From: Pseudarthrobacter sp. BIM B-2242
GTDB taxonomy: Bacteria > Actinomycetota > Actinomycetes > Actinomycetales > Micrococcaceae
NCBI RefSeq assembly: GCF_014764445.1
Contig: NZ_CP061721.1
Span: 2,418,001 to 2,482,000 of the forward strand
Length of the DNA: 64,000 nt
Reading direction: 5' to 3'
The position numbers and the translations under genes are program-made. This document shows, in pieces, positions 31,176 through 51,569 of the stretch (within the stretch, counting starts at the first letter, position 1; each line of letters starts with the position of its first letter). Under the pieces are notes generated by a model. The model was not told where the DNA came from. It ran no database searches and was given only the letters and a program-made list of their open reading frames with translations.

Positions 31176-31330
31176 AATTTTCCTCCCGATCCAGTACGTG
31201 AGCTGTTTCCCGATATTATTGCCCAAGGCCGATCTTTCGGGGAGTCCTTTCCGGGATTTCGTGGTTGTGGGTTGGCAGTTGTGTTCAATCGCTTACCACG
31301 GCAGCTGCGGCACCCGTTATCGCCGCACTT

Positions 31331-32212: not shown

Positions 32213-32324
32213 GGCTCCGGTTCGCTCAGCGTCGTGGCGGGTAGGGAAATCCTGCGGCGGTAATCGTTCTCGGCACGGAGCGGCAGGTCAGTGGAAAGGC
32301 GCCCTCGGCTCCATGCCCTGGACT

Positions 32325-32347
32325 GGCCGCAGCCGGCTGCTGCGGCC
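32325..32347 (-). terminator. Hairpin after ccsB
   Basis: GGCCGCAGC at 32325-32333 pairs perfectly with GCTGCGGCC at 32339-32347 around a five-base loop, 22 bases past the ccsB stop on the minus strand. No T-run. Confidence 0.55.
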
Positions 32348-32368
32348 CTGCCGGCGCCTAGGGTGAGA

Positions 32369-33481
32369 TCACAGGCCGGAGTAGGAGTGCAGGCCGTTGA
32401 AGAACTGGTTCACGATGGTGAAGTTGAAGACCACGCACAGGTAGCCGACGATGGACAGCCACGCGGCGCGGGTTCCGGTCCAGCCGCGTGTGGCACGGGC
32501 GTGGAGGTAGCCGGCGTAAACCACCCAGATGACGAAGGTCCAGACTTCCTTGGTGTCCCAGCCCCAGAACCGGCCCCAGGCTTTTTCGGCCCAGATCGCA
32601 CCAAACATCAGGGTAAAGGTCCAGCCAATGAACCCGAGCGCGTTGATGCGGTAAGAGAGGTTCTCCAGGCTCAGCGCCGACGGGACGACGCGCATGAACC
32701 CAAGCCTGGCCGCGCCTCCCGCGGCGACAGTTTTCTGCCGGCGGGACTGGACCAGCTGCAGGGCGGACAGCGCGAAGGTCAGGGTGAACAGGGCCGATGA
32801 GAGAACGGCGATGGAGACGTGGATGATCAGCCAGTAGCTTTGCAGGGCGGGAACGAGGTGGCCCACGGGAGTCCAGTACGCCACCGAGGCGGCGACCTGC
32901 ATGATGATGACCAGGCCGATCACGAAGGTGCCCAGGAACCGCAGGTCACGGCGGATCAGCGCGAGCAGAAACACCGCTGCGACGACGAAGGCGCCGGTGG
33001 TGAGGAATTCGTACATGTTGCCCCAGGGAACCCGGCCCGCACCGAGGGCCCGGGTCACCACCCCGGCGCCGTGGATCAGGGCGCCCAGCATGGTCAGGGC
33101 TACACCGACGCGCGCGGGCATGCGCCGGGCGGGGGCGTAGTCCATGTCGGTCCCGGCAGTTCGTCCTGCGCCGGCTGCGTCTTCTCCTGTCCGGTGCGCT
33201 GCTGAGCTGGGGCGTTCAGCAAAGCCAGCCGGCCCGCCGACGCCGGAAGCCGCCCGGTCCCCGGACGCGCGGGCACTGGTTCCGGCGCTGATCGGAACCC
33301 TGGCGGGTGCGGAGGCTTGAGCGGGCGCGGCTGTTGCGGCTTTGAGGTCCACCGCACGCAGGGTCCTGCTGCTGCGGGCCAGGTCCCAGGCGAATGCGAT
33401 GAACGCCACGGTGTAGGTGCCTGCGGCCAGGAGCATGAACAGCTCGCTGTACTGGCCCATGATTTCGTTGATCTCAGGCAT
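32369..33481 (-). CDS. ccsB: Cytochrome c biogenesis protein CcsB/ResC
   Basis: A 370-residue haem-handling partner of ResB. After an N-terminal helix (LFMLLAAGTYTVAFIAFAW) there is a long low-complexity cytoplasmic insert to about residue 120, then the conserved CcsA-type core with VPWGNMYEFL, the WWD-like haem segment FWGWDTKEVWTFVIW and VNQFFNGLHSYSGL at the end. Conserved His residues lie in VIIMQ and YWLIIHVSIA helices. The ATG overlaps the resB stop (TAATG), so the pair is coupled. Confidence 0.94.
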   Translation of the reverse strand: MPEINEIMGQYSELFMLLAAGTYTVAFIAFAWDLARSSRTLRAVDLKAATAAPAQASAPARVPISAGTSARASGDRAASGVGGPAGFAERPSSAAHRTGEDAAGAGRTAGTDMDYAPARRMPARVGVALTMLGALIHGAGVVTRALGAGRVPWGNMYEFLTTGAFVVAAVFLLALIRRDLRFLGTFVIGLVIIMQVAASVAYWTPVGHLVPALQSYWLIIHVSIAVLSSALFTLTFALSALQLVQSRRQKTVAAGGAARLGFMRVVPSALSLENLSYRINALGFIGWTFTLMFGAIWAEKAWGRFWGWDTKEVWTFVIWVVYAGYLHARATRGWTGTRAAWLSIVGYLCVVFNFTIVNQFFNGLHSYSGL

Positions 33482-35133
33482 TAGTGCTCCTTCGGTGAGC
33501 GGGCAGGGACGGCGGCGGCAGCGGCGGGGTCGGACTCTGCCAGGTTCCAGCGGGCGGCGAGGCGGGCACGGATCGCGGCGGCTTCGGGCGCGAGCCTGTG
33601 GTCTTCTCCGCGGGCCAGCAGCCCGTATTCGATCATCGTGCGGCCGTCCACGTGGGCGCCGGCACGGAGCCAGACGCGGCGACGGTTCACATACAGGGAG
33701 ACGATCAGCCCCGCGACGGCGGCCAGGGAGAAGATGAGAACCCCCTCCTGCCCGGGGACCGTGCGGATGTCCACCCCGATATAGCGTTTGAGCCCGTCGA
33801 AGCTGATCGAGCCTTTACCCTCCGGGAGGGTGTAGCTCTGCCCTGCGTCCAGGACAATGCCGCCGGCGGGAAGATCCCGGCCGTTGAGCTGGGTGAGGTT
33901 CTGCACGTCCAGGTTGTAGACGTTCTGGGGTTTCCCGGTGTCCAGCCCGAGGTCACCGTAGTAGGAGTTCAGGTTCAGTTGTGGGTTCAGCGGGTCCGGG
34001 TCGAAGCTGTAGGACACACCCTCCTGGTTCTTGATGGCCGAGGGCAGGAAGAACCCGACGAAACCCAGCTGGGAAGGTGACGCGTCCGGGGCCTTGAGGA
34101 CAATGCTGGAGGTGTAGACGGCGTCGTTGGGGACGGAGACGACGGGGCCGCTGAACGCGGTGTTCCCGTCCCCGTCCTTGACGGTGACGATGGGTGCGTA
34201 GCCGTTGCCCACCAGGAAGATGCCCGTTCCGCCGAAGTAGACCGGTTCGTTGACTTTCAGGACCTGCTGTTGCGGGGCGGCGTCAGGGCTTTCCCGGGTC
34301 GTCACGGCGGCTTTGAAGTCGATGGGCTGACCGAACTGCCGGGTGGATTCGCGGTCGAAGCGGACCTCGAACTTGTCCAGCGTGATGGCGAACGGGTCCA
34401 GCCAGTCGGACTGGAAGTTGGTTCCGGGGGTGAAGTTGTCGTAGCCGACGAGGGTGTTGACGAAGGTGTCGCCTTCGATGATGATTTTTTGGCCCCGGTA
34501 GCCGAACAATCCGCCGATGGCCACGGAAACCAGCACGCCGATCAGGGCGGTGTGGAAGACGAGGTTGCCGACCTCCCGTAGCAGCCCCCGTTCAGCCCCC
34601 AGTGAGGGCATCGCGGCGTCGGCGTCCCGGATATCGACCCGGTAGCCGCGTTTTTTCAAAACGTCCGCTGCGTCCCGGATGGCGTCGCCCGGGCTGACAC
34701 CGGATTCCGCCGGCAGGACGAGCGTGCCGTATTCGGGCAGCCGGGAGAGCCGACGCGGGGTGCGGGGCGGGGCTGAGCGCAGGGCCTTCCAGTGGGCCCG
34801 TGCCCTGGGTATCACGCAGCCGATGAGGGAGATGAACAACAGGATGTAGATCGCGGAGAACCAGGCCGAGGAATAGACATCGAAGAGCTGGAGTGAGTCA
34901 AGGATTTTTCCGTACTCCGGGCGGTCCTTGATGTATTGGGTCACCAGGGCAGGGTTCGCAGGACGCTGCGGGAACAACGAGCCGGGCACAGCGACCACGG
35001 CCAGCAGCAGCAGGAGAAAGATTGCGGTCCGCATGCTTGTCAGCTGCGTCCACGCCCAGCGCAGCATCCCGGCGGGACCCAGCGGCGGCGGGACCGGGCC
35101 TGCCGCAGTCTCCGGCGCGTCAGATAAGGACAT
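33481..35133 (-). CDS. resB: Cytochrome c biogenesis protein ResB
   Basis: A 550-residue complete ResB: helix and PGSLFPQRP motif near residues 45-60, SAIYILLFISLIGCVIPRAR, the third helix before FGYRGQKIIIEGD, the extracytoplasmic domain, and a final helix (GVLIFSLAAVAGLIVSLYVN) near residue 455 followed by a cytoplasmic tail. The ATG at 35133 gives MSLSDAPE; the frame extends to 35169 without a better start. Coupled to ccsB and divergent from the TlpA-like gene, with a symmetric site at 35187 in the spacer. Confidence 0.94.
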   Translation of the reverse strand: MSLSDAPETAAGPVPPPLGPAGMLRWAWTQLTSMRTAIFLLLLLAVVAVPGSLFPQRPANPALVTQYIKDRPEYGKILDSLQLFDVYSSAWFSAIYILLFISLIGCVIPRARAHWKALRSAPPRTPRRLSRLPEYGTLVLPAESGVSPGDAIRDAADVLKKRGYRVDIRDADAAMPSLGAERGLLREVGNLVFHTALIGVLVSVAIGGLFGYRGQKIIIEGDTFVNTLVGYDNFTPGTNFQSDWLDPFAITLDKFEVRFDRESTRQFGQPIDFKAAVTTRESPDAAPQQQVLKVNEPVYFGGTGIFLVGNGYAPIVTVKDGDGNTAFSGPVVSVPNDAVYTSSIVLKAPDASPSQLGFVGFFLPSAIKNQEGVSYSFDPDPLNPQLNLNSYYGDLGLDTGKPQNVYNLDVQNLTQLNGRDLPAGGIVLDAGQSYTLPEGKGSISFDGLKRYIGVDIRTVPGQEGVLIFSLAAVAGLIVSLYVNRRRVWLRAGAHVDGRTMIEYGLLARGEDHRLAPEAAAIRARLAARWNLAESDPAAAAAVPARSPKEH

Positions 35134-35186
35134 CACTGCCTTCCAATCGGGATGAACAAGAGCTCGCACGGTCTGCAGACCGCAGT

Positions 35187-35203
35187 TTCTACCTTACGTA
35201 GAA
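35187..35203. promoter_or_regulatory. CTAC-N5-GTAG symmetric site upstream of resB
   Basis: TTCTAC and GTAGAA flank five bases (35187-35203) in the resB/tlpA divergent spacer. A matching CTAC-N5-GTAG site lies at 57359-57371 in the copper region. Possibly a CopY/BlaI-type operator; this is inference. Confidence 0.5.
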
Positions 35204-35430
35204 TTAGTACCAGGTGGGTGGCCACGCCTTCCGAGCGCCCTCCTGATAATATCGCCTAAAGACGATTGCACCGGTTCCGGTTAAGTCCCTCTGCCCGAAG
35301 TTCTCACGGAATACGGGGGCGGGCCGGGAACGGCTTCTGCAGGTGCGTGCCTTAGCCGGCTGGCTTGATCCGCCAGGGAAGCAGTGGGCGTGACGATCAG
35401 CCGGAAACCCGACAAACGAGGAAGTCATCC

Positions 35431-36039
35431 ATGAACACCCCATCCGGCGGCGGCCTGGCCCGGCGCAGCATCCTGACAGGATTGGCCGCGGCGGCCTTCC
35501 TCGGCCTGGCCGCCTGCGCGGGACCTGACCCCCTCGCCCAGCAGGCAGCGGCAGGGGATAACAAGAACTACATTGCCGGTGACGGATCGGTGCAGGAATA
35601 CGCTGAGGAATCACGCAGCGCTCCTGTGGCCTTGAACGCGACCCTCTATGACGGCACCCCTGTCAGTTCCACGGACTGGGCCGGCACTGTGACGGTACTC
35701 AATTTCTGGTACGCGGCGTGCGCCCCGTGCCGCGTTGAGGCCCCGCACCTGGAAGCGCTGTACCAGGAGTTTGCCCCGCAGGGAGTTTTGTTCTACGGCA
35801 TCAACGTCCGGGATGAAAAGCCCACGGCGGAAGCCTTCGAGCGGACCTTCGGCGTGACCTATCCAAGCGTGCAGGACAAGGACGGGAAGGTGCTGCTCGC
35901 CATGACCCGCTTCGTTCCGCCCCAGGCGGTCCCAACCACCCTCGTGCTGGACAAGCAAGGCCGTGTCGCGGCCAGAATCCTGGGCGGACTGGACAAAAGC
36001 ACCCTGAAAGCCCTGATCACTTCCACACTCGAAGCCTAA
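35431..36039 (+). CDS. TlpA/ResA-like thioredoxin lipoprotein (second copy)
   Basis: A 202-residue lipoprotein oxidoreductase. Signal peptide with lipobox LGLAAC, a GDNKNYIAGDGSV stretch identical to the copy at 5591, active site WYAACAPCRVE near residue 97, and PTTLVLDKQGRVAARIL. Preceded by GAGGAAG. Here it is divergent from resB instead of adjacent to ccdA, but the ResB/CcsB/ResA trio is complete. It should reduce apocytochrome c outside the membrane. Confidence 0.93.
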   Translation: MNTPSGGGLARRSILTGLAAAAFLGLAACAGPDPLAQQAAAGDNKNYIAGDGSVQEYAEESRSAPVALNATLYDGTPVSSTDWAGTVTVLNFWYAACAPCRVEAPHLEALYQEFAPQGVLFYGINVRDEKPTAEAFERTFGVTYPSVQDKDGKVLLAMTRFVPPQAVPTTLVLDKQGRVAARILGGLDKSTLKALITSTLEA

Positions 36040-36160
36040 GAAAAGCTATGACGCTCCCGGCTTGGCGTTCCGAGCGGGCCGGTACGCTGGGATTCCCGAA
36101 GCGCCCGGGCCGCCTCAACGCCGGCCATGCCGGGGCGGCACGAGAGAAGGCTGGTCCATC

Positions 36161-37399
36161 ATGACGGTGCAGTTGCCTGAGAGTTCCCTTGCTCTTCTGC
36201 GTGAGGGATACACGTTCATTTCGAGCCGGTGCGACCGGCTCGACACCGATTCGTTCCGCACACGGCTGATGCTTCGCCCCGTTGTCTGCCTCCGCGGGGC
36301 GGAAGCGGCAGAGTTCTTCTACGGCGGTGGCCGGTTCGGCCGCGAGGCGGCGATGCCCCGCTCCGCCCAGCACCTTCTGCAGGACGCCGGCAGCGTACAG
36401 TCCCTCCAAGGTCCTGCCCACCGGCACCGGAAACAACTGTTTCTTGACCTGATGACCAAGGAATCGGTCGAACGCCTCGGCCAGGCCTTCGATGAGGAAT
36501 GGGTGTCGGCGGTGCATTGGTGGCAGGTCCGCGGCGAAGTTGTGCTGCATGACGAGCTGCGCCCGCTGCTCACCGCCGCCGCCTGCCGGTGGGCGGGAGT
36601 GCCGGCAAACCCGGCAACGGTCGAACGGATCAGCCGCGAATTGGGCCTGATGATCGAAAAGGCCGGAGCGGTCGGGCCGGTGAACTGGTATGCCCGGTGG
36701 CGCCGCCGCTCCACGGAAAAGTGGGCCGCCGAGCGCATCAGCACCCTCCGCCGGAGCGGTCCGGCCGCGGCCGGCGATACCCCTGCCGCTGCGATCGCCT
36801 TTCACACGGACGAGCACGGCAACGCTCTGCCGGCGGACATCGCGGCGGTGGAACTTCTCAACCTGCTCCGGCCCATCGTGGCTGTCGGCCGCTTCATGGT
36901 CTTTGCAGCCGTCGCCCTGCACCAGCACCCGGAATGGAAAGAGATCCTGCGCGCAGGCCAGGACGCGGACCTGGACTGCTTCGCCCAGGAAGTCCGCCGG
37001 TACTATCCGTTCTTCCCCTTCGTCGGCGGCACTGCCCGGGAAACGCTGGAATGGAAGGGCCACGCGTTCAAAGCCGGGCAATGGGTCCTGTTCGATCTGT
37101 ACGGCACGAACCACGACGGCCGGATCTGGAAGGACCCGGAAAGCTTCAACCCTGCCCGGTTCCGTACCTGGCACCCGGATCCCCACACCCTTGTTCCACA
37201 GGGCGCCGGCGACCCGGCCGCCGGGCACCGCTGCCCCGGCGAGGACATCACCGTTGACCTGATCCGCCGCGCCACCCGGGCGCTTGCCGCGGAGACCCGG
37301 ATGACCGTACCCGCTCAGGACCTGAGCATCAACCTCACCCGGATGCCCGCCCTGCCCCGGAGCGGCTTCATCCTCTCCGGACGCCCAGGACCGCACTGA
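36161..37399 (+). CDS. CYP152-family fatty-acid peroxygenase (second copy)
   Basis: A 412-residue P450 aligned along its length with the gene at 14200: MTVQLPESSLALLREGYTF, EFFYGGGRF, LLNLLRPIVAVGRF (Arg-Pro replacing the oxygen-activation pair), RRYYPFFPFVGGTA and GHRCPGEDITVDLIRRA with the haem Cys near 358. The ATG at 36161 was chosen over 36062, since the shorter form matches the paralogue's start. Expected to hydroxylate fatty acids with H2O2. It lies between the TlpA-like gene and arsR, unlike the first copy, which is beside lpdA. Confidence 0.93.
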   Translation: MTVQLPESSLALLREGYTFISSRCDRLDTDSFRTRLMLRPVVCLRGAEAAEFFYGGGRFGREAAMPRSAQHLLQDAGSVQSLQGPAHRHRKQLFLDLMTKESVERLGQAFDEEWVSAVHWWQVRGEVVLHDELRPLLTAAACRWAGVPANPATVERISRELGLMIEKAGAVGPVNWYARWRRRSTEKWAAERISTLRRSGPAAAGDTPAAAIAFHTDEHGNALPADIAAVELLNLLRPIVAVGRFMVFAAVALHQHPEWKEILRAGQDADLDCFAQEVRRYYPFFPFVGGTARETLEWKGHAFKAGQWVLFDLYGTNHDGRIWKDPESFNPARFRTWHPDPHTLVPQGAGDPAAGHRCPGEDITVDLIRRATRALAAETRMTVPAQDLSINLTRMPALPRSGFILSGRPGPH

Positions 37400-37463
37400 C
37401 ACCTCCCCGCACACACGACAGGGGAATCCTTCGGGCGCACGCCGCATGAGCAACGGTTGGCAC

Positions 37464-37483
37464 ATATCCACATGTATGGATAT
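37464..37483. promoter_or_regulatory. Inverted-repeat operator upstream of second arsR
   Basis: ATATCC at 37464-37469 and GGATAT at 37478-37483 are separated by eight bases; the right arm overlaps the ATATCA -10-like element that ends seven bases before the arsR ATG. Confidence 0.65.
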
Positions 37484-37492
37484 CATCGGTGC

Positions 37493-37867
37493 ATGACGAT
37501 TGATATGAGGAGCGGTACCCGGTTGGAACCGGCGGCCGCGTTGTTCCACTCCCTGGCGGACCCGGCCCGGCTTGCCATCGTGAAACGCATCGCCCAGGGC
37601 GAGGTCCGGGTCGGTGACCTCACCGAGGTACTGGGTCTGGCGCAGTCCACGGTCTCGGCGCATGTGGCCTGCCTGCGGGACTGCGGCCTGGTGACGGGCC
37701 GGATGGAGGGCCGGAAGGTGTTCTATTCCCTGACCCGCCCTGAACTGATCGATGTCCTGGCCCAGGCCGAGATCCTTCTGGCCGCCACGGGCAATGCGGT
37801 CAGCCTGTGCCCGGTCTACGGCGACGCCTCCCGCGCCACCGCAACCACCAAAGAGGAGCAACTGTGA
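37493..37867 (+). CDS. ArsR-family metalloregulator, CmtR-like (second copy)
   Basis: A 124-residue repressor with LEPAAALFHSLADPARLAIV, STVSAHVACLRDCGLV (paired cysteines) and VSLCPVYG near the C-terminus, matching the regulator at 4277. The ATG at 37493 is leaderless by the same seven-base rule; an upstream in-frame start at 37457 would place the operator inside the gene. Its stop overlaps the GTG of the ATPase (GTGA). Likely Cd/Pb/Zn sensor. Confidence 0.92.
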   Translation: MTIDMRSGTRLEPAAALFHSLADPARLAIVKRIAQGEVRVGDLTEVLGLAQSTVSAHVACLRDCGLVTGRMEGRKVFYSLTRPELIDVLAQAEILLAATGNAVSLCPVYGDASRATATTKEEQL

Positions 37868-39816
37868 GCGACGCCTGCTGCGGCGATGACAAGCCTGTAA
37901 CAACAGAAGAGGGTCAGGAAGAGGCTGAGGGCTTCTGGCAGGTGACTGAGGTCCGCGCGGCCGCGGTCGCCGGCGGGCTGCTGCTGATGGCATGGATCGC
38001 TTCGCTGCTGGACGCGTCCGAGTGGGTCACCCTGCCGCTGGAGGCCGCGGCGCTGCTGGTCGCGGGGTGGACGTTTGTTCCCTCAACCCTGCGCCGGCTT
38101 GCCAAGGGCAAGATCGGTGTCGGCACGCTGATGACGATCGCGGCAGCGGGAGCCGTTGCCCTGGGGCAGGTCGAGGAAGCGGCGATGCTGGCCTTCCTGT
38201 ATGCCATCTCGGAGGGGTTGGAGGAATACTCGGTAGCCCGCACCCGGCGCGGGCTGCGTGCCCTGCTGGATCTGGTCCCGGCCGAGGCCAGGGTCCTGCG
38301 CAACGGAACCGAAGTCACCGTCTCCCCGTCCGAGCTGGTGCTCGGTGAAACCATGGTCGTGCGCCCTGGCGAACGGCTCGCCACGGACGGACGCGTCCTG
38401 ACCGGGCGCACCTCCCTGGACACCTCGGCCCTGACCGGCGAATCAGTCCCGGTCGAAGCAGGACCGGGCAGCGACGTTTACGCCGGCTCCATTAACGGCA
38501 CCGGCCCGCTCGAGGTTCAGGTCACCAGCACCGCGGAAAACAACTCGCTGGCACGAATCGTGCACATCGTGGAGGCCGAGCAGTCCCGCAAGGGCCCCGG
38601 CCAGCGGCTGGCCGACTCGATCGCCAAAAAGCTCGTCCCGGGTATCCTGATCGCCGCCGCGCTCATTGCCGTCTATGGTTTCATCGTCGGTGAACCGCTC
38701 CTGTGGATTGAACGTGCCCTGGTGGTCCTGGTGGCAGCCTCACCGTGCGCCCTGGCCATCTCCGTGCCCGTGACAGTGGTCGCCGCCGTCGGCGCTGCCA
38801 GCCGGATGGGCGTCCTGATCAAGGGCGGCGGCGCCCTGGAAACCCTCGGCAAGATCCGCACCATCGCCCTGGACAAGACCGGGACCCTGACCCGCAACAA
38901 ACCCGCCGTGATCGAAGTCGCCGCCACCGCCTCCTCCACCCGGGAGCGGGTGCTGGCCGTCGCCGCCGGCCTGGAAGAACGCAGCGAACACCCGCTCGCC
39001 CGCGCCATCCTCGCCGCCGCCAGCGACCGGGTCACCGTCACCGGCCTGGACACCGTTCCCGGTGCCGGGCTCGAAGGGACCATCGACGGGCACAGCGCCC
39101 GGCTCGGCAGGCCCGGATGGATCGCCCCGGGGGAGCTGAAGGACACCGTTCAGCGGATGCAGGCCAGCGGCGCGACAGCGGTCCTGGTCGAGGAGAACTC
39201 TGTCCTCATCGGCGCCGTAGCCGTCCGCGACGAACTTCGCCCCGAAGCCGCGGCCGTGATTGAACGCCTCAGCCGCGCCGGCTACACCACGGCCATGCTC
39301 ACCGGTGACAACCGGCTCACCGCCGAGGCCCTGGGCAAGGCAGCGGGCATCACCGAAGTCCACGCCGACCTGCGCCCCGAAGACAAGGCGGAGATTATCC
39401 GCGCCCTGAAGGGGCGGCAGCCGACCGCCATGGTCGGTGACGGTGTAAACGATGCCCCCGCTCTGGCGACCGCCGATACCGGCATCGCGATGGGCGCGAT
39501 GGGCACCGACGTGGCCATCGAAACCGCCGACGTCGCACTGATGGGCGAGGACCTGCACCACCTGCCGCAAGTACTGGAGCACGCCCGCCGCACCCGCCGC
39601 ATCATGTTCCAGAACGTAGGACTCTCCCTGGCCCTGATCGCCGTGTTGATCCCGCTGGCCCTGTTCGGCATCCTGGGACTGGCAGCAGTTGTGCTGATCC
39701 ACGAACTGGCCGAAATCGTTGTCATCGCCAACGGCGTCCGCGCCGGCAAGGTGAGCAAGTACGGCACCATCCCGGCCACCCAGGACACCGTCCCCACCCT
39801 GGAACCGGCACGGTGA
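37864..39816 (+). CDS. Soft-metal-translocating P1B-type ATPase (second copy)
   Basis: A 650-residue pump, same length as the copy at 2328. The N-terminus is DACCGDD, so the vicinal cysteine motif differs (CC here, CGC there). Motifs: TGES near 192, SPC near 294, DKTGTLTR near 338, SEHPLA, MLTGDN, GDGVNDAPA and a late HELAEIVVIANG helix. GTG start at 37864 overlaps the arsR stop; its own stop overlaps the lspA GTG. The order arsR-ATPase-lspA is conserved, then ccdA and cadD follow, so pump and thiol export are co-transcribed here. Confidence 0.93.
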   Translation: MSDACCGDDKPVTTEEGQEEAEGFWQVTEVRAAAVAGGLLLMAWIASLLDASEWVTLPLEAAALLVAGWTFVPSTLRRLAKGKIGVGTLMTIAAAGAVALGQVEEAAMLAFLYAISEGLEEYSVARTRRGLRALLDLVPAEARVLRNGTEVTVSPSELVLGETMVVRPGERLATDGRVLTGRTSLDTSALTGESVPVEAGPGSDVYAGSINGTGPLEVQVTSTAENNSLARIVHIVEAEQSRKGPGQRLADSIAKKLVPGILIAAALIAVYGFIVGEPLLWIERALVVLVAASPCALAISVPVTVVAAVGAASRMGVLIKGGGALETLGKIRTIALDKTGTLTRNKPAVIEVAATASSTRERVLAVAAGLEERSEHPLARAILAAASDRVTVTGLDTVPGAGLEGTIDGHSARLGRPGWIAPGELKDTVQRMQASGATAVLVEENSVLIGAVAVRDELRPEAAAVIERLSRAGYTTAMLTGDNRLTAEALGKAAGITEVHADLRPEDKAEIIRALKGRQPTAMVGDGVNDAPALATADTGIAMGAMGTDVAIETADVALMGEDLHHLPQVLEHARRTRRIMFQNVGLSLALIAVLIPLALFGILGLAAVVLIHELAEIVVIANGVRAGKVSKYGTIPATQDTVPTLEPAR

Positions 39817-40322
39817 GCCAACCGACACCGGTGCGCGACAGCACCCCGTCCCGGCCGTGGATGCGCCGGGGCGGGCTGCTGGCCGCCGCGCTCCTGCTGG
39901 CCGGGGCCGACCTGCTCATCAAGACCCAGGCCGAAGCCGGTCTCTCCCGGGGAGAAGTGATCGAGGTGCCGCTGCTGACGATCAAGCTCCTCTACAACAT
40001 GGGCGTGGCCTTCAGCCTCGGATCCGCCCTGCCCACCGGAATTGTCGTGGCCGGTACCGGGGCCATCATCGCCGTGCTGCTGACATGGCTAACAGTGAAC
40101 GCACCAAAGATGTCCAGGACCGCCCTTACCGGTGGTACTCTCATTGCCGGCGGCGCCATCGGAAACTTCATTGACCGGCTCGACGGGCGCGGGGTCGTCG
40201 ATTATCTGCACAGCGGATGGTTCCCCACGTTCAACCTCGCCGACGTCTTCGTCACCGTGGGAACCGCCGTCCTGGTCCTGGGAATGCTGCGGGCAGGCAA
40301 GGAACCGGAGACAGCGGAATGA
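39813..40322 (+). CDS. lspA: Lipoprotein signal peptidase (second copy)
   Basis: A 169-residue signal peptidase II with catalytic motifs GNFIDRLDGRGVVDYLH and FNLADVFV and four helices. GTG start overlaps the ATPase stop; its stop overlaps the ccdA ATG (ATGA). The N-terminal 25 residues differ from the first copy while the core is close, consistent with divergence after an old duplication. Confidence 0.95.
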   Translation: MSQPTPVRDSTPSRPWMRRGGLLAAALLLAGADLLIKTQAEAGLSRGEVIEVPLLTIKLLYNMGVAFSLGSALPTGIVVAGTGAIIAVLLTWLTVNAPKMSRTALTGGTLIAGGAIGNFIDRLDGRGVVDYLHSGWFPTFNLADVFVTVGTAVLVLGMLRAGKEPETAE

Positions 40323-41068
40323 GTCTTGGCGGCTTCTTCGCCGAGTCTGTGCAGTCCGGAGCCCTGCTCCTGGCAGTGCCCCTGGCGGTCATCGCCGGTC
40401 TGGTCTCGTTCATCTCACCCTGTGTCCTGCCCCTGCTCCCGGGCTACCTGGGTTACGTCTCCGGCCTGGCCGGAACCGATGAAAAGGCCGCCCGCAGGCG
40501 CACCACCGCCGGCGTCGGGCTGTTCATCCTCGGCTTCGCCGCGGTCTTCACCCTTTACGGTGCGGCGTTCGGGACCATCGGACACTGGCTGGTGAGCTGG
40601 AGCGACATGATCACGCGTGTTCTGGGCGTGGTCGTGATCGTGATGGGCGTCGCCCTGTCCGGAAAGATCCCGTTCCTGCAGAGCACGGCCAAGCTGACCT
40701 GGAAACCGAACACCGGCCTGGCCGGGGCGCCGCTGCTGGGCATCGGCTTCGGGCTCGGGTGGACGCCGTGCATCGGCCCGACCCTCAGCGCCGTGCTGGC
40801 GTTGAGCACTACCACCGGGTCGGCCTGGCGCGGGGCGCTGCTCGGCTTCGCGTACTGCATCGGTCTGGGTATCCCGTTCCTCCTCGTCGCCCGGGGCTTC
40901 AGCTGGGTCACCGGCACCCTCGGCTTCGTCCGGCGGAACATCAGGGCCTTCAACCTCGCAGGGGCAGCGACCCTGGTCCTGGTCGGGATCCTGATGGTTT
41001 CCGGTGTCTGGACGACCTGGATCCTGAGCCTGCAGAACCTGATCGGAACCTTCACCACGCCCATCTGA
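40319..41068 (+). CDS. ccdA: CcdA-type thiol-disulfide transporter (second copy)
   Basis: A 249-residue, six-helix protein with FISPCVLPLLPGYLG and [15 protein letters not shown] supplying the two redox cysteines. ATG at 40319 overlaps lspA. In this island ccdA is inside the metal-pump operon rather than with the TlpA-like gene, tying extracytoplasmic thiol reduction to metal induction. Confidence 0.95.
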   Translation: MSLGGFFAESVQSGALLLAVPLAVIAGLVSFISPCVLPLLPGYLGYVSGLAGTDEKAARRRTTAGVGLFILGFAAVFTLYGAAFGTIGHWLVSWSDMITRVLGVVVIVMGVALSGKIPFLQSTAKLTWKPNTGLAGAPLLGIGFGLGWTPCIGPTLSAVLALSTTTGSAWRGALLGFAYCIGLGIPFLLVARGFSWVTGTLGFVRRNIRAFNLAGAATLVLVGILMVSGVWTTWILSLQNLIGTFTTPI

Positions 41069-41120
41069 CCTGGCCGCGGGTATGCAACCGGCGGGGACGC
41101 CCTGAGAGAGGTGCTGATTA

Positions 41121-41723
41121 ATGCTTGGCATCATCGCGGCCGCGGCAGCAATGTTCGCTGCCACGAACATCGACGACATCGTCGTTTTGACCGTGCTGTT
41201 CCTCGCCTCCTCGAAAGGCCGCCGGCCCCGGCCCTGGGAAATCGTCGGCGGGCAGTACCTGGGATTCATCACCCTGGTCGGCATCAGCGTCCTGGCCGCG
41301 CTCGGGCTGACCCTTGTCCCGGACGAATGGGTCGGCTGGCTCGGCCTGCTCCCCCTCGGAATCGGCGTTTTCGGCCTGATCCGTTTCCTGCGCAGACGCG
41401 GCGAAGAGGAAACCGAAGGCGCTATCAGCGCAGTTGGCCTGCTCAGCGTCGCCGGCATCACCATCGCCAACGGTGCAGATAACATCGCCATCTACACCCC
41501 GATCTTCCGGACCATGCGCCCCCAGGACACCGTGGTCACCATCATCGTGTTCCTCATCCTGGTAGCCGTCTGGTGCGCACTGGGACGTGTTGTGGGAACC
41601 CACCCCAAAGTCATTGAGACCCTCGAAAAAATCGAACACTGGCTCGTCCCGGCAGTGTTCATCGGGCTGGGCCTGTTCATCCTCCTCAGCTCCGGCGTCC
41701 TGACCCGGCTGTTCAACGCCTGA
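41121..41723 (+). CDS. cadD: CadD-family cadmium resistance transporter (third copy)
   Basis: A 200-residue Cad-family protein with ATNIDDIVVLTVLFLASSKG and NGADNIAIYTPIF. The central loop is short and less acidic (RRRGEEETEG) than in the other two. Over most of its length it matches the copy at 1152 (VGGQYLGFITLVG, VPDEWVGWLG, ETLEKIEHWLVPAVFIGLG in parts). It follows ccdA by 52 bases, likely the last gene of the arsR operon. Confidence 0.9.
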   Translation: MLGIIAAAAAMFAATNIDDIVVLTVLFLASSKGRRPRPWEIVGGQYLGFITLVGISVLAALGLTLVPDEWVGWLGLLPLGIGVFGLIRFLRRRGEEETEGAISAVGLLSVAGITIANGADNIAIYTPIFRTMRPQDTVVTIIVFLILVAVWCALGRVVGTHPKVIETLEKIEHWLVPAVFIGLGLFILLSSGVLTRLFNA

Positions 41724-41772
41724 GCAACAAGGAATCACCGGGGACCAGCCACGGCCAGGGCCAGGAGGAATC

Positions 41773-42998
41773 ATGAAAGAAACGCCAGGGGGGCTGTTGC
41801 TTGATGCCCGTGCTGCCCGTGACGACAAAGGCAGCCCTGATGGCTCACTTCGATGAGTGGGTGACGGATCCTGCCGTGACGCTGGAGGGTGTGCAGTCGT
41901 TCGTTAATGACCCGTCGCTGGTCGGCGCGAAATTCCTCAACCGCTACACGGTCGCTACAACGTCCGGGACGACCGGCACCCGGGGAGTGTTCCTGCTCGA
42001 CACCACATCCCTGGCCGTGGCCAAGGCCCTGACATTTCGCATGCTCAGTTCCTGGCTCACCCCGGCCGATATCCTGGGGATAATCCGCGGTCACGGGCGG
42101 ATCGCCATGGTCATCGCCACGGGCGGCCACTTCGCCTCGGCAGCAGCCGCGGCCGCGCTCCGGAAGGGACCAGGCAGGCACAGCGTGGGGGTGTTCCCGG
42201 TCCAGACACCGATGCCGGACCTCGTCGCCCAGCTGAACAGCTTCCGCCCGGCCCTTCTTGCCCCCTACGCCTCAACCGGACGGTTGCTGGCGTCCGAGCA
42301 GGAAGCCGGACGGCTGAACATCCACCCCGTTGCCGTTGTTCTCTCCGCCGAGGGCCTGCCCGAGGGAGACTACGGCAGGATCAGCGGAGCGTTCGGAGCC
42401 AAGGTCCGTCAAGGCTACGCAGCGACTGAATGCCCCTTTCTGAGCTACAGCTGCCAGGAAGGCTAGCTCCACGTCAACAGCGACTGGGCCATCCTGGAAC
42501 CGGTCGACGCTAACCATAAACCCGTCCCGCCCGGGCAGCCCTCGCACACCGTGCTGCTGAGCAACCTGGCCAACCGCATACAACCGATCCTGCGCTACGA
42601 CCTGGGCGACAGTGTCACCACCAGGACTGACCCGTGCCCGTGCGGGGACCCGACGCCGGCCATCCACGTGCAGGGACGAACAGCGGAGCTGCTGACCTTC
42701 CCTGGAAACGCCCGGGCTCTCCGTTTCAATAACACCCCTCACGCTGAGTGCCGCCTTGGACAAAGTTCAGGGCCTGAGTAAGGGCCAGATCATCCAGACA
42801 GGACCCCAGGACCTCGCCCTCCGGCTGCAACCCGCCCCCGGTGCCGAACCTGCGAGGGTTTTCGAAGCCGCCCGTTCCGAAATCGCCGCCGTGCTGGCCG
42901 GTCATGGACTGGGCCATGTCACCCTGACAAGGGATCCCTCCCCTCCGCGTCTCACCCCAGGCGGCAAACACCGCACAGTCATCCCGCTGCCCCCGTAG
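41773..42998 (+). pseudogene. Disrupted PaaK/CapK-like ligase
   Basis: Homologous to the intact ligase at 9670. A good AGGAGG ribosome site and ATG at 41773 lead to GLLLDARA, then the sequence jumps about 65 codons to LPVTTKAALMAHFDEWVTDP in another frame, across a repeated GCCCGT. Translation then runs well (TTSGTTGTRG, YAATECPFLSYSCQE) to TAG at 42464-42466, where the intact gene has TGG (Trp). It resumes with LHVNSDW and shifts frame near 42733 before ending in GGKHRTVIPLP. Three lesions make it non-functional. Confidence 0.9.
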
Positions 42999-43352: not shown

Positions 43353-45986
43353 TCACTCGGAGTCTGCCCTGCCAGCTGCAGTAGATCTACGGAGAAGGAT
43401 GCGCGGCCGTTGCAGCTGGCGCTCAAGCAATCCCATTACCTTGGTGGCCCCCGCCCAGTAGAGGATGCCTGCGGCCAGGGACGCGACGACGGCCAGGCCT
43501 TTTTGTGCCGGGTCAACGAGCGGGTACACCAGCCAGTGGGTGACGTAGATGTACAGGGAGGCGCTGGCCAGCAGTGCCGTGACCCGGTGCAGTCCGCGCG
43601 GGACGGTCAGGGTGGGCAGCCAGAGCAGGATGAGGAAGCCCACCAGGATGGTTGCGCTGCGGTACTGGTCGTCGAAGGACTGTGGGATGGTGAGCAGGGC
43701 AATGGCGGTCACGGCTGCCCGCTGCCACAGTGTCCGCGACGCGGCGGCGGCCCAGCCCAGCCCGAACAGCCACAGGACCGGCCCCTGCCCCGGATACCGG
43801 CTGTCAACCAGGTCGAAGAGCAACGGCAGGTCAACAGCTACCAATGCCAGGGCGAAGGCCCACGGCCACCGGCGCTGGGCCCGGTCAGCGGCAGGAATTG
43901 CCATCAGGGCGGCCAGGCCCAGCAGGATGTAGACCAGGATCTCGATAAACCAGAACCGGGAATAGTCGGTCCAGCCTTCCGGCCCCAGCAAGGAGTTCAG
44001 CAGGAAAACATTCGCCCAGGTATAGGTATCGGTCACGGCAAAAGCCAGGCCTATGACCGCAACGCTGGGCACGACGATCCGGGCCACGCTGCGCAGTTGC
44101 CGCCGCAGCCGGGCACAGCGGGTACCGGTCAGCTGGAAGCGGGCAAAGTTATAGCCGGCGACGGCGATGAGCACGTGGGCGGTCCCTTCCCAGTGGAAGA
44201 AACCTATATGCGTGGAAACAATGAAGATGATGGCAACGGCGCGGAGCACAATCCCGGTGTCCATCGGGGCCAGCATCCGCCGGTGCCAGCGACGTGCGGT
44301 CTTCCCGGCCGGGCGGCTAAGCTGGCCCGCAGCCTCACCCGTGGCCGCGGGCTGCGTGCCCTGCGCCCGGTGGGTGGCAGGCACAAGTTCACAGACCGGC
44401 GTCAGGTGCCAGCCCTGCGGGATGTGTCCCAGGGCACGCTCCAGCCGGACGGACGCTGCCACGTAGGACAGCGAGTCACCGCCCAGGGAAACAAAGGTGT
44501 CCGTATCGGCGACGTCCTCCTGTTCGAGGACCTCCGCGAAAATCCTCCGCACGTCAGCCGGGCGTCCTGCCGGTTCCGGTGCAGTAGCAGTACCGCCGGC
44601 GCGGTCATCATTCCTGGACGCCAGGGCCAGGACCGCGGGGTAGTCCGGCTTTCCGTTCTCCAGGCGCGGTATGGACCCCACGGCATGAAGCTGGACCGCT
44701 GAACGCGGCAGACCCAGGTCCTGGGCAAGGCTCTTGGCCACCAGGGCAAGATCGTGGCTTCCTTCCACCGCCGCGACCACTGCGTCGTCCGAGCCGGCAG
44801 CCGCGGCGATCAGGCCAAGATCGGCCAGCAGCCGTTCCACCTGGCCCAGGTCCACCCGCAGGCCGACGATTTTCACGAACCGGCTGCGCCTGCCCACGAT
44901 CTCATAGAGGCCATTGGACCCGCGCCTGGCGAGGTCACCGGTGTGAAGCTCCGTGACAACCCGTCCCAGGGCAAGGTCTTCCGGCTGTTCGGCGTACCCC
45001 AGCATGACGTTGGGACCTGAGTAGACGAGCTCGCAGGCATCCAGGCCGGGGACGGGCTCCAGCCGGAAGGATCCACCGGGGACAGGCACTCCAATGGCGT
45101 GGGGGTGTTCTGCCGCCAGGTCCGGGGGCAGATAGGCCATGCGGGCCGTGGCTTCGGTCTGCCCGTACATGACAAACAGGTCCCAGCCCTGCCGCCTGCC
45201 CAGTTCCGCGTAGGAACGCACGCGGTCCGGATCGAGCCGGCCGCCCGCCTGGGTGATGTAGCGCAGGCCCGGCAGGTCCATGTGCTCAAATCCGACGCGT
45301 TCGAGGAGATCGAAGGTGTAGGGCACGGCGGCGAAGGATGTGACGTTTTCGGTATGAACCAGTTCCCAGAAGCACGGGTCAACCACTGAAAGGTCGGTCA
45401 GTGCCAGGGACGCGCCGACCAGGAGGTGGCTGTTCACCACACTCATCCCGTAGCAGTAGGAGAGCGGAAGCGTGGTGGCCGCGGTGTCGTCCGGGCGCAG
45501 GTGCAGGTATTCGGCTATCGCCGAGGCGTTGGCCTGCACGGCTTCGGCGGACAGGCGCACGAGTTTTGGCGAACCGGTGGATCCGGAGGTGCTCAGCAGA
45601 AGCGCCAGCTCCGGGTGCAGCTCATGCCTGGTTTCTTCCCGCCGTACGTCCAGGACCGCCTCACCCTGCGAGGCGCGGACCACGATATCGGGATCGTATG
45701 CGGCGACGAGCGCCTCGGCGGCGGTCCCGCCGCCTGTGGGCAGGATCAGCAATGGGTTGCCGGAGGACAGGGCGGCGAGGTAGACCACCAGGGACGGCAG
45801 CGTGTTCTCGGCCTCAAGGGCAATGAGCCGCCGGGCGGGTCCGAAGGAACGGGCCATGTCGTCGACACGGCGTCCCAGTTCGCCGTAGCTCACTGAGTGG
45901 TTTTTGGTCCTGATGGCGGTGCGGTCTCCGAAGCCGGCCAGCTGCGCGGCGAACGAGACTCCTGCCAGTTCCGGCTGTACAGTCAC
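43353..45986 (-). CDS. Adenylation-carrier-membrane acyltransferase fusion
   Basis: An 877-residue single-chain protein. Residues 5-455 are an AMP-binding domain with TSGSTGSPKLVR near 133, YGQTEATARM near 274, LHTGDLARRG near 347 and the catalytic NGKPDYP near 444. Residues 470-530 are a carrier domain with LGGDSLSYVA (phosphopantetheine Ser near 505). Residues 575-870 are a ten-helix acyltransferase-3 domain with RAVAIIFIVSTHIGF (conserved Arg and His). No condensation domain. It could activate an acid, load it on itself and pass it across the membrane, like DltA-DltC-DltB fused. The GTG at 45986 is preferred because a TTG at 46007 lies inside the iron-box-like promoter. Confidence 0.88.
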   Translation of the reverse strand: MTVQPELAGVSFAAQLAGFGDRTAIRTKNHSVSYGELGRRVDDMARSFGPARRLIALEAENTLPSLVVYLAALSSGNPLLILPTGGGTAAEALVAAYDPDIVVRASQGEAVLDVRREETRHELHPELALLLSTSGSTGSPKLVRLSAEAVQANASAIAEYLHLRPDDTAATTLPLSYCYGMSVVNSHLLVGASLALTDLSVVDPCFWELVHTENVTSFAAVPYTFDLLERVGFEHMDLPGLRYITQAGGRLDPDRVRSYAELGRRQGWDLFVMYGQTEATARMAYLPPDLAAEHPHAIGVPVPGGSFRLEPVPGLDACELVYSGPNVMLGYAEQPEDLALGRVVTELHTGDLARRGSNGLYEIVGRRSRFVKIVGLRVDLGQVERLLADLGLIAAAAGSDDAVVAAVEGSHDLALVAKSLAQDLGLPRSAVQLHAVGSIPRLENGKPDYPAVLALASRNDDRAGGTATAPEPAGRPADVRRIFAEVLEQEDVADTDTFVSLGGDSLSYVAASVRLERALGHIPQGWHLTPVCELVPATHRAQGTQPAATGEAAGQLSRPAGKTARRWHRRMLAPMDTGIVLRAVAIIFIVSTHIGFFHWEGTAHVLIAVAGYNFARFQLTGTRCARLRRQLRSVARIVVPSVAVIGLAFAVTDTYTWANVFLLNSLLGPEGWTDYSRFWFIEILVYILLGLAALMAIPAADRAQRRWPWAFALALVAVDLPLLFDLVDSRYPGQGPVLWLFGLGWAAAASRTLWQRAAVTAIALLTIPQSFDDQYRSATILVGFLILLWLPTLTVPRGLHRVTALLASASLYIYVTHWLVYPLVDPAQKGLAVVASLAAGILYWAGATKVMGLLERQLQRPRILLRRSTAAGRADSE

Positions 45987-46000
45987 AAACCTGCACAGTA

Positions 46001-46019
46001 AAGGCAAAAGCTAACCTAA
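46001..46019 (-). promoter_or_regulatory. DtxR/IdeR-like iron box
   Basis: The minus strand reads TTAGGTTAGCTTTTGCCTT; the first ten bases match the actinobacterial iron-box half-site exactly while the second half is degenerate. It lies 15 bases upstream of the 45986 start. Confidence 0.5.
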
Positions 46020-46278
46020 CTCAAATGGACATTCCTTGGAACAGGGCCACCACGACAGCGATGCGATCACCAGCCGCCACTCGGGTTGGCGCAGACAGCG
46101 GTTCAAATGGACCTTGGGCTGAGGGGCTCAGCCTTTATAGTGATCGTGAGCGGTAAGGATCACAGGCTGGTAGGTGAGGCCCTCGCGATCCGCCAACTGC
46201 CCAGCGGCGGCTGGCAGGTCAGCAACCACACCCCCGGCAGCGTCCTCCCCGGCGGGGAAGGGCGACTAGTGGTGTCAG

Positions 46279-49484: not shown

Positions 49485-51023
49485 TCAGCCCAGGACGCCC
49501 AGGGCGTTACCTACGATGTCGAACAAATCGGTGTTGTCCACGCTGCCCTGCAGTTGCTCCGAGCCTGGGCCGTAGGCGTAAACGGGCACGTCTGCACCGG
49601 AGTGGTTGCCGGAGGCGTAGCTCAGCCAAAGACTGGCTTCCTTTGAACCGTCCTTGACTTGGGGCGGGTCGCTCGGCGTCCGGAAGGTGGCAGGGCCGAA
49701 GTTTTGCTGGTCCTTTGCGCCTGCACCGTTGCTGATACCGGTTGAACGTTCCGGGTCCTTGAAGTTTCCGTCGGACCGGGTCGGGGTGGAGTTATTGGCG
49801 GCGTTCCCGGAATCGACGTTGACCGGGGGCGCGGCTGCTTCGGCGTTAGTGAAGGAGCCCTTTTCGATGATGTGGAAACCGCCGGTTTCGTGGTCGGCGG
49901 TAACAATGACCAGGGTATTGCCGTCCTTCTTGGCGAAGTCCAGGGCTGCGGCGACGGCATCGTCGAAGGCCTTGACTTCCTCCAGTGTCTGGGCCGCGTC
50001 GTTGTCGTGGGACCGCTTGTCAATCAAGGAACCTTCAACCTGCAGGTAAAAACCCTTGCCGCTGCTTTCCTGTTGCTGGTTTAGAAGCTCAAGAGCTTTC
50101 TTTGTCATCTCCGGCAGGGACGGCTCCTTCGCCTGGGGAGCTCCGGGGTCGTCCTGCTTGGCTTTTTCAACGGTCAGGTTTCCCTTGTTGAACAGGCCAA
50201 AGACCTTCTCCCCCACGGCTCCGTTCAGGTCGTCCCGGGTCGCGGGAATCTGGCTGGAAACCGAACCCAGGATCGAGTAGCCCTGCTCCTTCAGCTCGGT
50301 TTCATCCGAGGCGTCAAAGCGGCGCAGGCCGCCGCCGAAGATGATGTCCGCGGTACCGTTGCGGGCGATCTGGTCTGCGATCGGGGTTACTCGGACATCA
50401 CTGGTCGGCAGCGGCTCACCGGTGATCTCTGTGTCCTGGCACGCGTCCGCGGAGTAGTCCGGTCCCTGGCAGCCGCGGGACAGGACGTGGCTCATCTGCC
50501 CGGCCGGGGACGCGTCGGTAATTTCGGCCGTGGAGACACTGCCAGTGCGGTAGCCGGTCTGCTTGGCCAACTCCATCATGGTCGGCACCACATGGCCCGT
50601 GGCATCCACCCCGAGGGCGGCGTTGTAGGTTTTCACCCCGGAGGCCCACGCCGTGGCTGCAGCGGCGGAATCGGTGACCAGTTCCGGGGCGAAGTCAGAC
50701 TGCCCCGGCTGGCCGGAGTTTTTCTGCACAGCATAGGTACTGACAGAACCGTGGGCCGGGAGGGTTTCCATAACCAGCCTGCCCTCGGCACCGTAGAAAC
50801 GCTCCCTGCCGGCAGTGACTTGGGTGCGGCCCATGCCGTCACCAAGCAGATATATAACGTTCTGGGCTGTGCCAGGTGCCGGCTTGGTGGCGGTAAACAC
50901 CGCGGACGAGATCAGCCCGGTGGCCACGACGGTGGCCACGACGGCTGCCAGGACGACCCAAATGATCCTGCGTCTTTTCCGTGCAGGGTCGGCGGGCGTG
51001 ACGTCGGCCGGAACTTGTGTCAT
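49485..51023 (-). CDS. phoA: Membrane-anchored alkaline phosphatase
   Basis: A 512-residue alkaline phosphatase: LLGDGMGRT near 61, TDSAAAATAW (nucleophile Ser near 120), TADHETGGFHIIEKG near 375. The catalytic body closely follows the enzyme at 7161. The N-terminus differs: instead of a cleavable signal it has DPARKRRRIIWVVLAAVV and SAVFTATKPAP, which resembles the anchor of the DsbA-like protein at 58100 (DPARKVRIVLWILLAAAV, YAVFTAAKPEP). It is therefore probably tethered to the membrane. ATG at 51023. Confidence 0.93.
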   Translation of the reverse strand: MTQVPADVTPADPARKRRRIIWVVLAAVVATVVATGLISSAVFTATKPAPGTAQNVIYLLGDGMGRTQVTAGRERFYGAEGRLVMETLPAHGSVSTYAVQKNSGQPGQSDFAPELVTDSAAAATAWASGVKTYNAALGVDATGHVVPTMMELAKQTGYRTGSVSTAEITDASPAGQMSHVLSRGCQGPDYSADACQDTEITGEPLPTSDVRVTPIADQIARNGTADIIFGGGLRRFDASDETELKEQGYSILGSVSSQIPATRDDLNGAVGEKVFGLFNKGNLTVEKAKQDDPGAPQAKEPSLPEMTKKALELLNQQQESSGKGFYLQVEGSLIDKRSHDNDAAQTLEEVKAFDDAVAAALDFAKKDGNTLVIVTADHETGGFHIIEKGSFTNAEAAAPPVNVDSGNAANNSTPTRSDGNFKDPERSTGISNGAGAKDQQNFGPATFRTPSDPPQVKDGSKEASLWLSYASGNHSGADVPVYAYGPGSEQLQGSVDNTDLFDIVGNALGVLG

Positions 51024-51569
51024 CGGAGGGTGCTTTCCTGTCAGGGGCGGGGGGCTATATCGCCTTTGCCTCAAACCGTACCGCGGCCATAGCACTACCC
51101 GAGGGTTTCTCGAGCCAATGGAAATAGATCCGTTCAGAAAGGATACGCATGTTCCGGGGCATTGAATCAGTTAAGGACAACCCGGCCTTCATCCGGCTGG
51201 CCCGCCCGGTCCTACCAACCGGTGCGCCCATCAGTGGGGCCTGTTCCAAAGGCAGCCGCTGAACAGAAGCCTTTTAGCGGCGGCGAAGACGGAATGCACT
51301 TCCGGCTTCGCCTTCGTCTTCTTCCAAAGCATGTTTCAGACTTCACAAATGATTATGTGGCCGACCGGGCAGGAAGACGGGCCGTTCTTTTTCGACTCCC
51401 GGCGGGCGGCGGCGCGATTGTTCAGCCCCCGTCCTTAGCGCCGTCCTTCAGGTATTCGGACGGGGGATCGCTGCTTTGCGTTATGCAAATGTGACAACGC
51501 CGTGGTTTTTGCAGTAGGGTCGGACGCGTGCCGGTCTCAGAATGCGGCACTCCTGAGCAGATTTGCCTA
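51024..51569. other. Divergent promoter spacer
   Basis: About 550 bases between phoA and the riboswitch. It must hold the promoters for both. Parts are A/T-richer than the surroundings, but no clear operator or gene is seen. Confidence 0.4.

Follow-up and report, generated by a model that had tools for sequence, protein, structure and literature searches.

In the Dlt pathway (DltA-DltC-DltB), an acyl group is adenylated, loaded on a carrier and moved by a membrane transferase to an acceptor outside. The same order of steps is laid out in one chain by a gene in a 64,000-nucleotide stretch of DNA from Pseudarthrobacter sp. BIM B-2242 (the window; G000:C1:2418001-2482000 of a 4.36-Mb contig), whose product joins an adenylation domain, a peptidyl carrier (PCP) and an acyltransferase-3 (AT3) membrane domain; we refer to it as the A-PCP-AT3 gene. 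Unlike the Dlt genes, it is preceded by iron boxes in its relatives and linked to ferric importers. We favor a reading in which the protein is a carrier-fed AT3 enzyme, induced by iron starvation, that attaches a carboxylic acid to an acceptor outside and so helps to capture Fe(III), a reading to which we give an even chance of being right. The protein is probably an uncharacterized part of iron collection in these bacteria.

Two other groups of described proteins bear on the comparison. Adenylation-carrier modules of nonribosomal peptide synthetases (NRPS), such as those of the linear gramicidin synthase LgrA, PvdL and ObiF1, resemble the front of the protein, which aligns with the adenylation and carrier domains of LgrA at residues 17-518; unlike in those modules, an AT3 membrane domain takes the place of a condensation, thioesterase or reductase domain, none of which was found by Pfam in the 877-aa protein, the neighboring genes having been annotated for the importer only. 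The AT3/TmAT enzymes (OafB, OatA and the HGSNAT superfamily) resemble its membrane part. Such enzymes use acyl-CoA as the donor and carry a first Arg in the third transmembrane helix (TMH3) that is broadly conserved and functional, according to the accessible parts of PMC9558356 and PMC12423673, and their known fusion partners, in the same part of PMC9558356, are SGNH or racemase domains; the AT3 domain described here, in contrast, follows a synthetase and a carrier of its own in the same chain. Neither the A-PCP-AT3 architecture, nor its iron link, nor an SfuABC/FbpABC importer paired with an acyl-transfer synthetase was found in the literature searched, which took in neither bioRxiv preprints nor most subscription papers, and the accessible parts of PMC9558356, PMC12423673, PMC4531530, PMC12161575 and PMC1382209 hold no description of the architecture or the iron link. 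We regard the protein as an NRPS-like synthetase to which AT3 has been joined, and a new role for it in acquiring iron is plausible.

The gene occupies positions 43353 to 45986 on the minus strand (placed at G000:C1:2461356-2463986) and forms a single open frame of 877 codons plus a stop, from a GTG at 45986 to the stop at 43355-43353; the plus strand of 43353-45986 is interrupted by stops. A longer version in the open reading frame listing, with a TTG start at 46007, is disfavored because that start falls inside an iron-box-like site at 46001-46019. Pfam places in this frame, all on the minus strand, AMP-binding (PF00501, residues 12-331, E 2.9e-39) in an adenylation domain at about residues 12-455 (44622-45953), PP-binding (PF00550, residues 478-520, E 1.2e-6) in a carrier at residues 478-540 (44367-44555), and Acyl_transf_3 (PF01757) in a membrane domain at residues 575-851 (43434-44264), the last supported also by profile alignment to AT3 domains. 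The order of AMP-ligase, carrier and AT3 that had been proposed in a sequence-only reading of this DNA is borne out by these matches.

We can confirm that the fusion is real. At E ≤ 0.001, 5506 of 8000 scored database candidates match, ordinary adenylation enzymes included; among the 120 matches listed of these 5506, 89 carry all three Pfam domains and 114 have PF01757 among their precomputed domains, the carrier model often missing the carrier in these relatives. Across the class, matches at E ≤ 1e-60 occur in 71 of 394 genomes; in 66 they lie in open frames of at least 837 aa (in some of which only the adenylation-carrier part reaches the threshold), and in 5 they lie in shorter frames (485-715 aa) and cover the adenylation part only. 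Homologs also occur on plasmids, 45-50% identical in Rhodococcus and Mycolicibacterium and 34-36% in Sinorhizobium, Rhizobium and Leisingera. Long frames and domain-bearing relatives in so many genomes show that the fused frame did not stay open by chance, a possibility against which the intact frame and the conservation of 84 aligned sequences also count. That hand-chosen alignment comprises the window protein, 13 of the 120 listed database proteins and 70 of 90 homologous loci, the other 20 loci (fragments, overlong frames, near duplicates) having been left out, and Lys446, Ser505, Arg282, Arg582, His593, Glu682 and Tyr814 are invariant throughout it.

The main clue to function, which the sequence-only reading had missed, is iron: a DtxR/IdeR-type box and an adjacent ferric importer accompany the gene in many of its relatives. 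Both were sought in the 90 loci, made up of 80 genome loci (the best 80 of 578 confirmed) and 10 plasmid loci, a sample biased to close relatives. Using a single consensus, the 19-bp DtxR/IdeR box TTAGGTTAG(G/C)CTAACCTAA given in the accessible part of PMC1382209, and counting sites at no more than 4 mismatches, we find 57 box-like sites in these loci, whereas three block shuffles gave none. Every site falls in the 300 bp upstream of either the synthetase (45) or the substrate-binding protein (SBP) of an importer (12), and 7 of the 57 are further sites in loci already counted, some overlapping. The boxes are spread over 50 of the 90 loci and 19 genus-level labels, with the qualification that related loci share boxes by descent and that the genus labels of metagenome-assembled genomes are placeholders. 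From box to estimated synthetase start the distance is 10 to 191 bases. Permuted palindromes were found in a mean of 0.015 loci, versus 37 of 90 for the real palindrome in the same comparison, which rests on gene-start estimates that are in part unreliable. A box is present in 30 of the 52 loci that bear a complete importer, and it stands before the synthetase in 20 of the 38 that do not. There is thus strong sequence evidence that transcription across the family is under a DtxR/IdeR-type iron repressor.

The importer linkage points in the same direction. SBP, permease and ATPase occur together, by tblastn, in 52 of the 90 loci, never more than 456 bp (median 186) from the synthetase gene to the nearest importer match, and when the neighboring genes are clustered, the top cluster is the importer permease (45 loci) and the next clusters likewise fall on importer genes. 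Five arrangements are seen, the commonest being divergent (ATP- PERM- SBP- synthetase+, 24 loci), followed by importer then synthetase (SBP+ PERM+ ATP+ synthetase+, 19 loci) and synthetase+ SBP+ PERM+ ATP+ (7 loci), with the remaining two found in one locus each. Estimated junctions are -11 to -28 in ten Mycolicibacterium/Mycobacterium loci, and in four Rhodococcus loci they are -4 in two and 163 and 303 in the others. Four of the 52 linked SBPs were tested, and all match solved ferric-binding proteins: those of Rhodococcus fascians (L004; best match 1xvy, E 9.4e-134), Streptomyces (L061; 7w3w, E 3.5e-78), Pseudarthrobacter (L038; 7li0, E 5.3e-80) and Micromonospora (L048; 7w3w, E 3.6e-88). 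Relative to the Rhodococcus fascians protein, the linked SBPs show identities from 29% (Kocuria) upward, with a median of 36%. Since the best matches of the tested SBPs differ, more than one type of ferric importer has been paired with the A-PCP-AT3 gene.

The window's own copy is preceded by the iron-box-like site at 46001-46019 (AAGGCAAAAGCTAACCTAA, no strand assigned), 14 bases from the GTG start. One half-site is perfect and the other degenerate, with 7 mismatches altogether, and the site ranks first of 63,982 window positions by the score of a matrix built from 41 sites in genera outside Micrococcaceae only. Elsewhere in the genome lies an unlinked SBP-permease-ATPase set (L109:2474-6395, with the SBP at G000:C1:590729-591790), whose SBP resembles SfuA and 8k7n (E 6.6e-134 to 8k7n), the fifth SBP to match a solved ferric-binding protein, and whose partners are, by Pfam, a binding-protein-dependent permease and an ABC ATPase. 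A strong box, GTAGGTTAGCCAAACCTAA, stands 85 bases before the start of this SBP, an arrangement that would fit control in trans of both this set and the window gene by one repressor.

What the enzyme might make can be read in part from its domains. The adenylation domain carries STSGSTG, YGQTEATAR, TGD and Lys446 (44649-44651), which we take to be motifs A3, A5, A7 and A10, and the phosphopantetheine serine, Ser505 (44472-44474), sits in the LGGDSL of the carrier, where Asp is replaced by Asn in 15 of the 84 aligned sequences. The invariant Lys446 and Ser505 together are the hallmark of an NRPS-like adenylation-carrier pair, and the intactness of the carrier serine, along with that of the AT3 Arg and His (Arg582 and His593), means that the sequence-only reading withstands, at sequence level, the checks on these residues that it had set for itself. 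In the binding pocket, Cys178 (80 of 84 sequences, Ser in the other 4) falls, in a hand alignment, at the position that we take to be that of PheA Asp235, where the automatic profile alignment to LgrA is out of register by two residues; the pocket also contains Tyr179, Ser182, Thr245, Met273 and Arg282, all invariant in the 84. With the Asp235 equivalent missing, an alpha-amino acid substrate is disfavored, and the substrate is probably a carboxylic acid other than a normal alpha-amino acid. An anionic or hydroxylated acid would be a good fit for Arg282, and we considered this residue as proof of a dicarboxylic substrate; this argument was dropped and no substrate is drawn from Arg282, because adenylation-only relatives, which share TEATAR or TEATSR, have the residue too. 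The best NCBIfam match of the domain is the exosortase-associated acyl ligase TIGR03098, followed by generic acyl ligases and the 2-oxoglutaryl-ACP ligase AmcH, all of them far below their cut-offs.

The membrane domain is a divergent AT3 domain. Its PF01757 match (residues 580-831) scores 29.0 bits (E 7e-7) against a cut-off of 31 bits, and 32.4 bits when neighbors in the frame are counted along. Hydropathy maxima above 2.0 are confined to residues after 570, with weaker hydrophobic segments (1.3-1.6) at residues 63-84, 183-206 and 386-408; in this one sequence fewer helices can be made out than the ten expected of AT3. In a profile alignment to 19 AT3 domains of related genomes (19 of 20 templates kept, one of which, L116, carries extra N-terminal sequence), Arg582 (44241-44243) and His593 (44208-44210) fall on the Arg-x10-His of TMH1, and Ser810 (81 of 84 sequences), Tyr814 (84 of 84) and His817 (83 of 84) fall on the SxxxY of TMH9 and the His that follows it. 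The Asp of DxxRx10H is not found three residues before Arg582. This domain departs from its AT3/TmAT counterparts in having Leu606 aligned to the Phe of FxxxxG in TMH2 and Ser633 at the first Arg of the RxxR of TMH3, the second being Arg636; among the aligned sequences, Arg632 is found in 43 of 84 and Arg636 in 60. The absence of the first TMH3 Arg might fit a carrier-bound donor instead of CoA, in that a carrier-fed enzyme might not need this residue.

A pathway can be proposed. Upon iron starvation, a DtxR/IdeR-type repressor would release transcription, as suggested by the strong boxes of the family and the degenerate site in the window. The adenylation domain would then activate a small carboxylic acid as its AMP ester and charge the phosphopantetheine arm of the chain's own carrier with it, steps to which intact and invariant motifs point. 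By extension of AT3 biology, the carrier would deliver the thioester to the AT3 domain at its cytoplasmic mouth, replacing acyl-CoA, and the AT3 domain would acylate an acceptor outside the membrane. Strong genomic evidence suggests that the output would serve ferric-iron uptake together with the SfuABC/FbpABC-type importer, and the most likely product would be a (hydroxy)carboxylate chelator, extracellular or bound to the surface, which collects Fe(III) for the binding protein of the importer.

Several observations weigh against this proposal. No site at 4 or fewer mismatches is found in 40 of the 90 loci, and all three alphaproteobacterial loci, at 35-36% identity, lack both a box and a complete importer. 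The window copy itself has a degenerate box and no adjoining importer. The NCBIfam matches of the Rhodococcus fascians SBP are all below cut-off, the best being 2-aminoethylphosphonate binders. Among 59 near relatives, 38 have an SfuA-type SBP at E ≤ 1e-50, a threshold at which more distant ferric SBPs would go unnoticed; 13 of these 38 lack the A-PCP-AT3 gene, and four genomes (G025, G037, G045 and G051) have the gene and no such SBP. Thus neither strictly needs the other, and we do not use this co-occurrence as evidence, the SBP being found in 38 of 59 with or without the gene. Finally, relatives with an adenylation domain and no AT3 lie near glycosyltransferase-type genes, which favors plain surface decoration. 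Five such relatives were fetched and four were readable, and three of the four are near a Pfam-verified glycosyltransferase-type gene. At L127, dehydratase-like genes and a carrier gene occur together with a gene whose product has both a glycosyltransferase domain and a CDP-glycerol (teichoic-acid-type) glycerophosphotransferase domain; at L128:4191-7519 and L129:4101-7305, in two actinobacterial genomes, SDR, adenylation and LuxE-type synthetase genes stand in a row, possibly an acylated surface-polymer locus, with a verified glycosyltransferase near that of L128; and at L131 a glycosyltransferase and an ABC exporter lie near the adenylation gene. The ancestral use of the family may have been surface-polymer acylation, and the idea of the sequence-only reading, that a surface polymer is decorated, therefore stays alive as a rival.

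In the form closest to that idea, an iron-starved cell would acylate a surface glycan or lipid, altering charge or permeability, with an acyl group that does not itself bind iron. We consider this unlikely, and yet the most serious of the alternatives, weighted slightly higher because of the glycerophosphotransferase at L127. Known AT3 enzymes acylate extracytoplasmic glycans in the accessible part of PMC9558356, and the adenylation-only relatives, two of them beside SDR and LuxE genes, are in keeping with such a role, as is the sub-threshold resemblance to TIGR03098. Set against this envelope remodeling are ferric importers of more than one type, the five arrangements and the tight iron boxes, which indicate iron supply; a surface-polymer role finds some support in the relatives. 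Aminoacylation of the Dlt kind, in which D-Ala or another alpha-amino acid is placed on a surface polymer, is much less credible. The step order and the intact carrier agree with it, and as an analogy, with AT3 instead of DltB, the Dlt-like logic suggested earlier holds; the alpha-amino acid part of that suggestion is not supported, given Cys178 in place of the pocket Asp. The iron linkage would be left unexplained, and the membrane partner, for which Pfam gives only PF01757 and no MBOAT-type DltB, is of a family structurally distinct from MBOAT/DltB in the accessible part of PMC12423673. Judged by its sequence, the protein resembles Dlt in its mode of action and yet does not belong to that system, because the pocket Asp and an MBOAT-type DltB, the two defining features tested, are both lacking.

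Iron regulation and importer linkage would also agree with a role in which the AT3 domain acylates a classical siderophore, or its precursor, during export, the siderophore being made elsewhere in the genome, and AT3 proteins do modify antibiotics and antitumor drugs in Actinobacteria, as stated in the accessible part of PMC9558356. This tailoring or release function seems improbable to us, if less so than aminoacylation: the tested linked importers belong to the ferric SfuA/FbpA class, and the neighbor clusters beyond the four largest, which we place on importer genes, reach at most 9 loci, these being unannotated and no siderophore-gene search having been made. Least credible of all is that the gene is a passenger of mobile elements, its linkage to iron genes a by-product of the way in which metal genes gather on plasmids and islands. 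The window copy does adjoin a cadmium/redox island that also occurs on Arthrobacter plasmids, and near relatives are found on plasmids typed as conjugative; however, in many genera the boxes precede the estimated start of the A-PCP-AT3 gene itself, and the importers differ in both order and type. The reading that we prefer remains iron capture by a carrier-fed AT3 enzyme.

The surroundings of the gene deserve a brief description of their own. The island, at 31328-42997, encodes CcsB, ResB, a thioredoxin-like protein, P450, a P-type ATPase, LspA, CcdA and a Cad transporter. Three Arthrobacter FB24 plasmids match it, at 87.6% across 54% of a 21-kb query, with the match ending at 42997; the A-PCP-AT3 gene and its box (43434-46029) match two other plasmids separately, at 85%. 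Between 41801 and 42998, on the plus strand, lies an apparently broken gene related to phenylacetate-CoA ligase and F390 synthetase, in which a 221-aa piece matching part of TIGR02304 is followed by a stop and a further open piece; the matching Arthrobacter FB24 plasmid stretches are annotated with coenzyme F390 synthetase. An alkaline phosphatase gene (49485-51095, minus strand) is found near the A-PCP-AT3 gene in the window and also near the homolog on an Arthrobacter FW306-05-C plasmid. In Rhizobium phaseoli (L020:10662-15584), the neighbors of a distant homolog are adenylate-cyclase-domain proteins and a YcaO/TfuA pair, which sets it apart from the iron context.

If iron capture is the correct reading, a common uncharacterized actinobacterial protein would turn out to be the partner that ferric SfuABC/FbpABC-type importers have been missing, and what AT3 enzymes do would be extended to carrier-bound donors as well as to metal nutrition. 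The natural fusion lets the question of the AT3 donor, CoA or carrier, be tested directly, and, under the proposal, a knock-out in soil bacteria that are easy to grow should show a simple, iron-regulated phenotype. The strongest version, a new iron-acquisition system in which a one-protein chelator factory uses carrier-fed AT3 to build an iron-binding acyl group that an SfuABC/FbpABC-type importer then harvests, is a speculative one that we hold only tentatively and think rather unlikely. Were it true, the acceptor would be a surface polymer or a small molecule, neither a siderophore synthetase nor a siderophore-class importer would be needed, and about one in six of the genomes sampled from the class would have the system.

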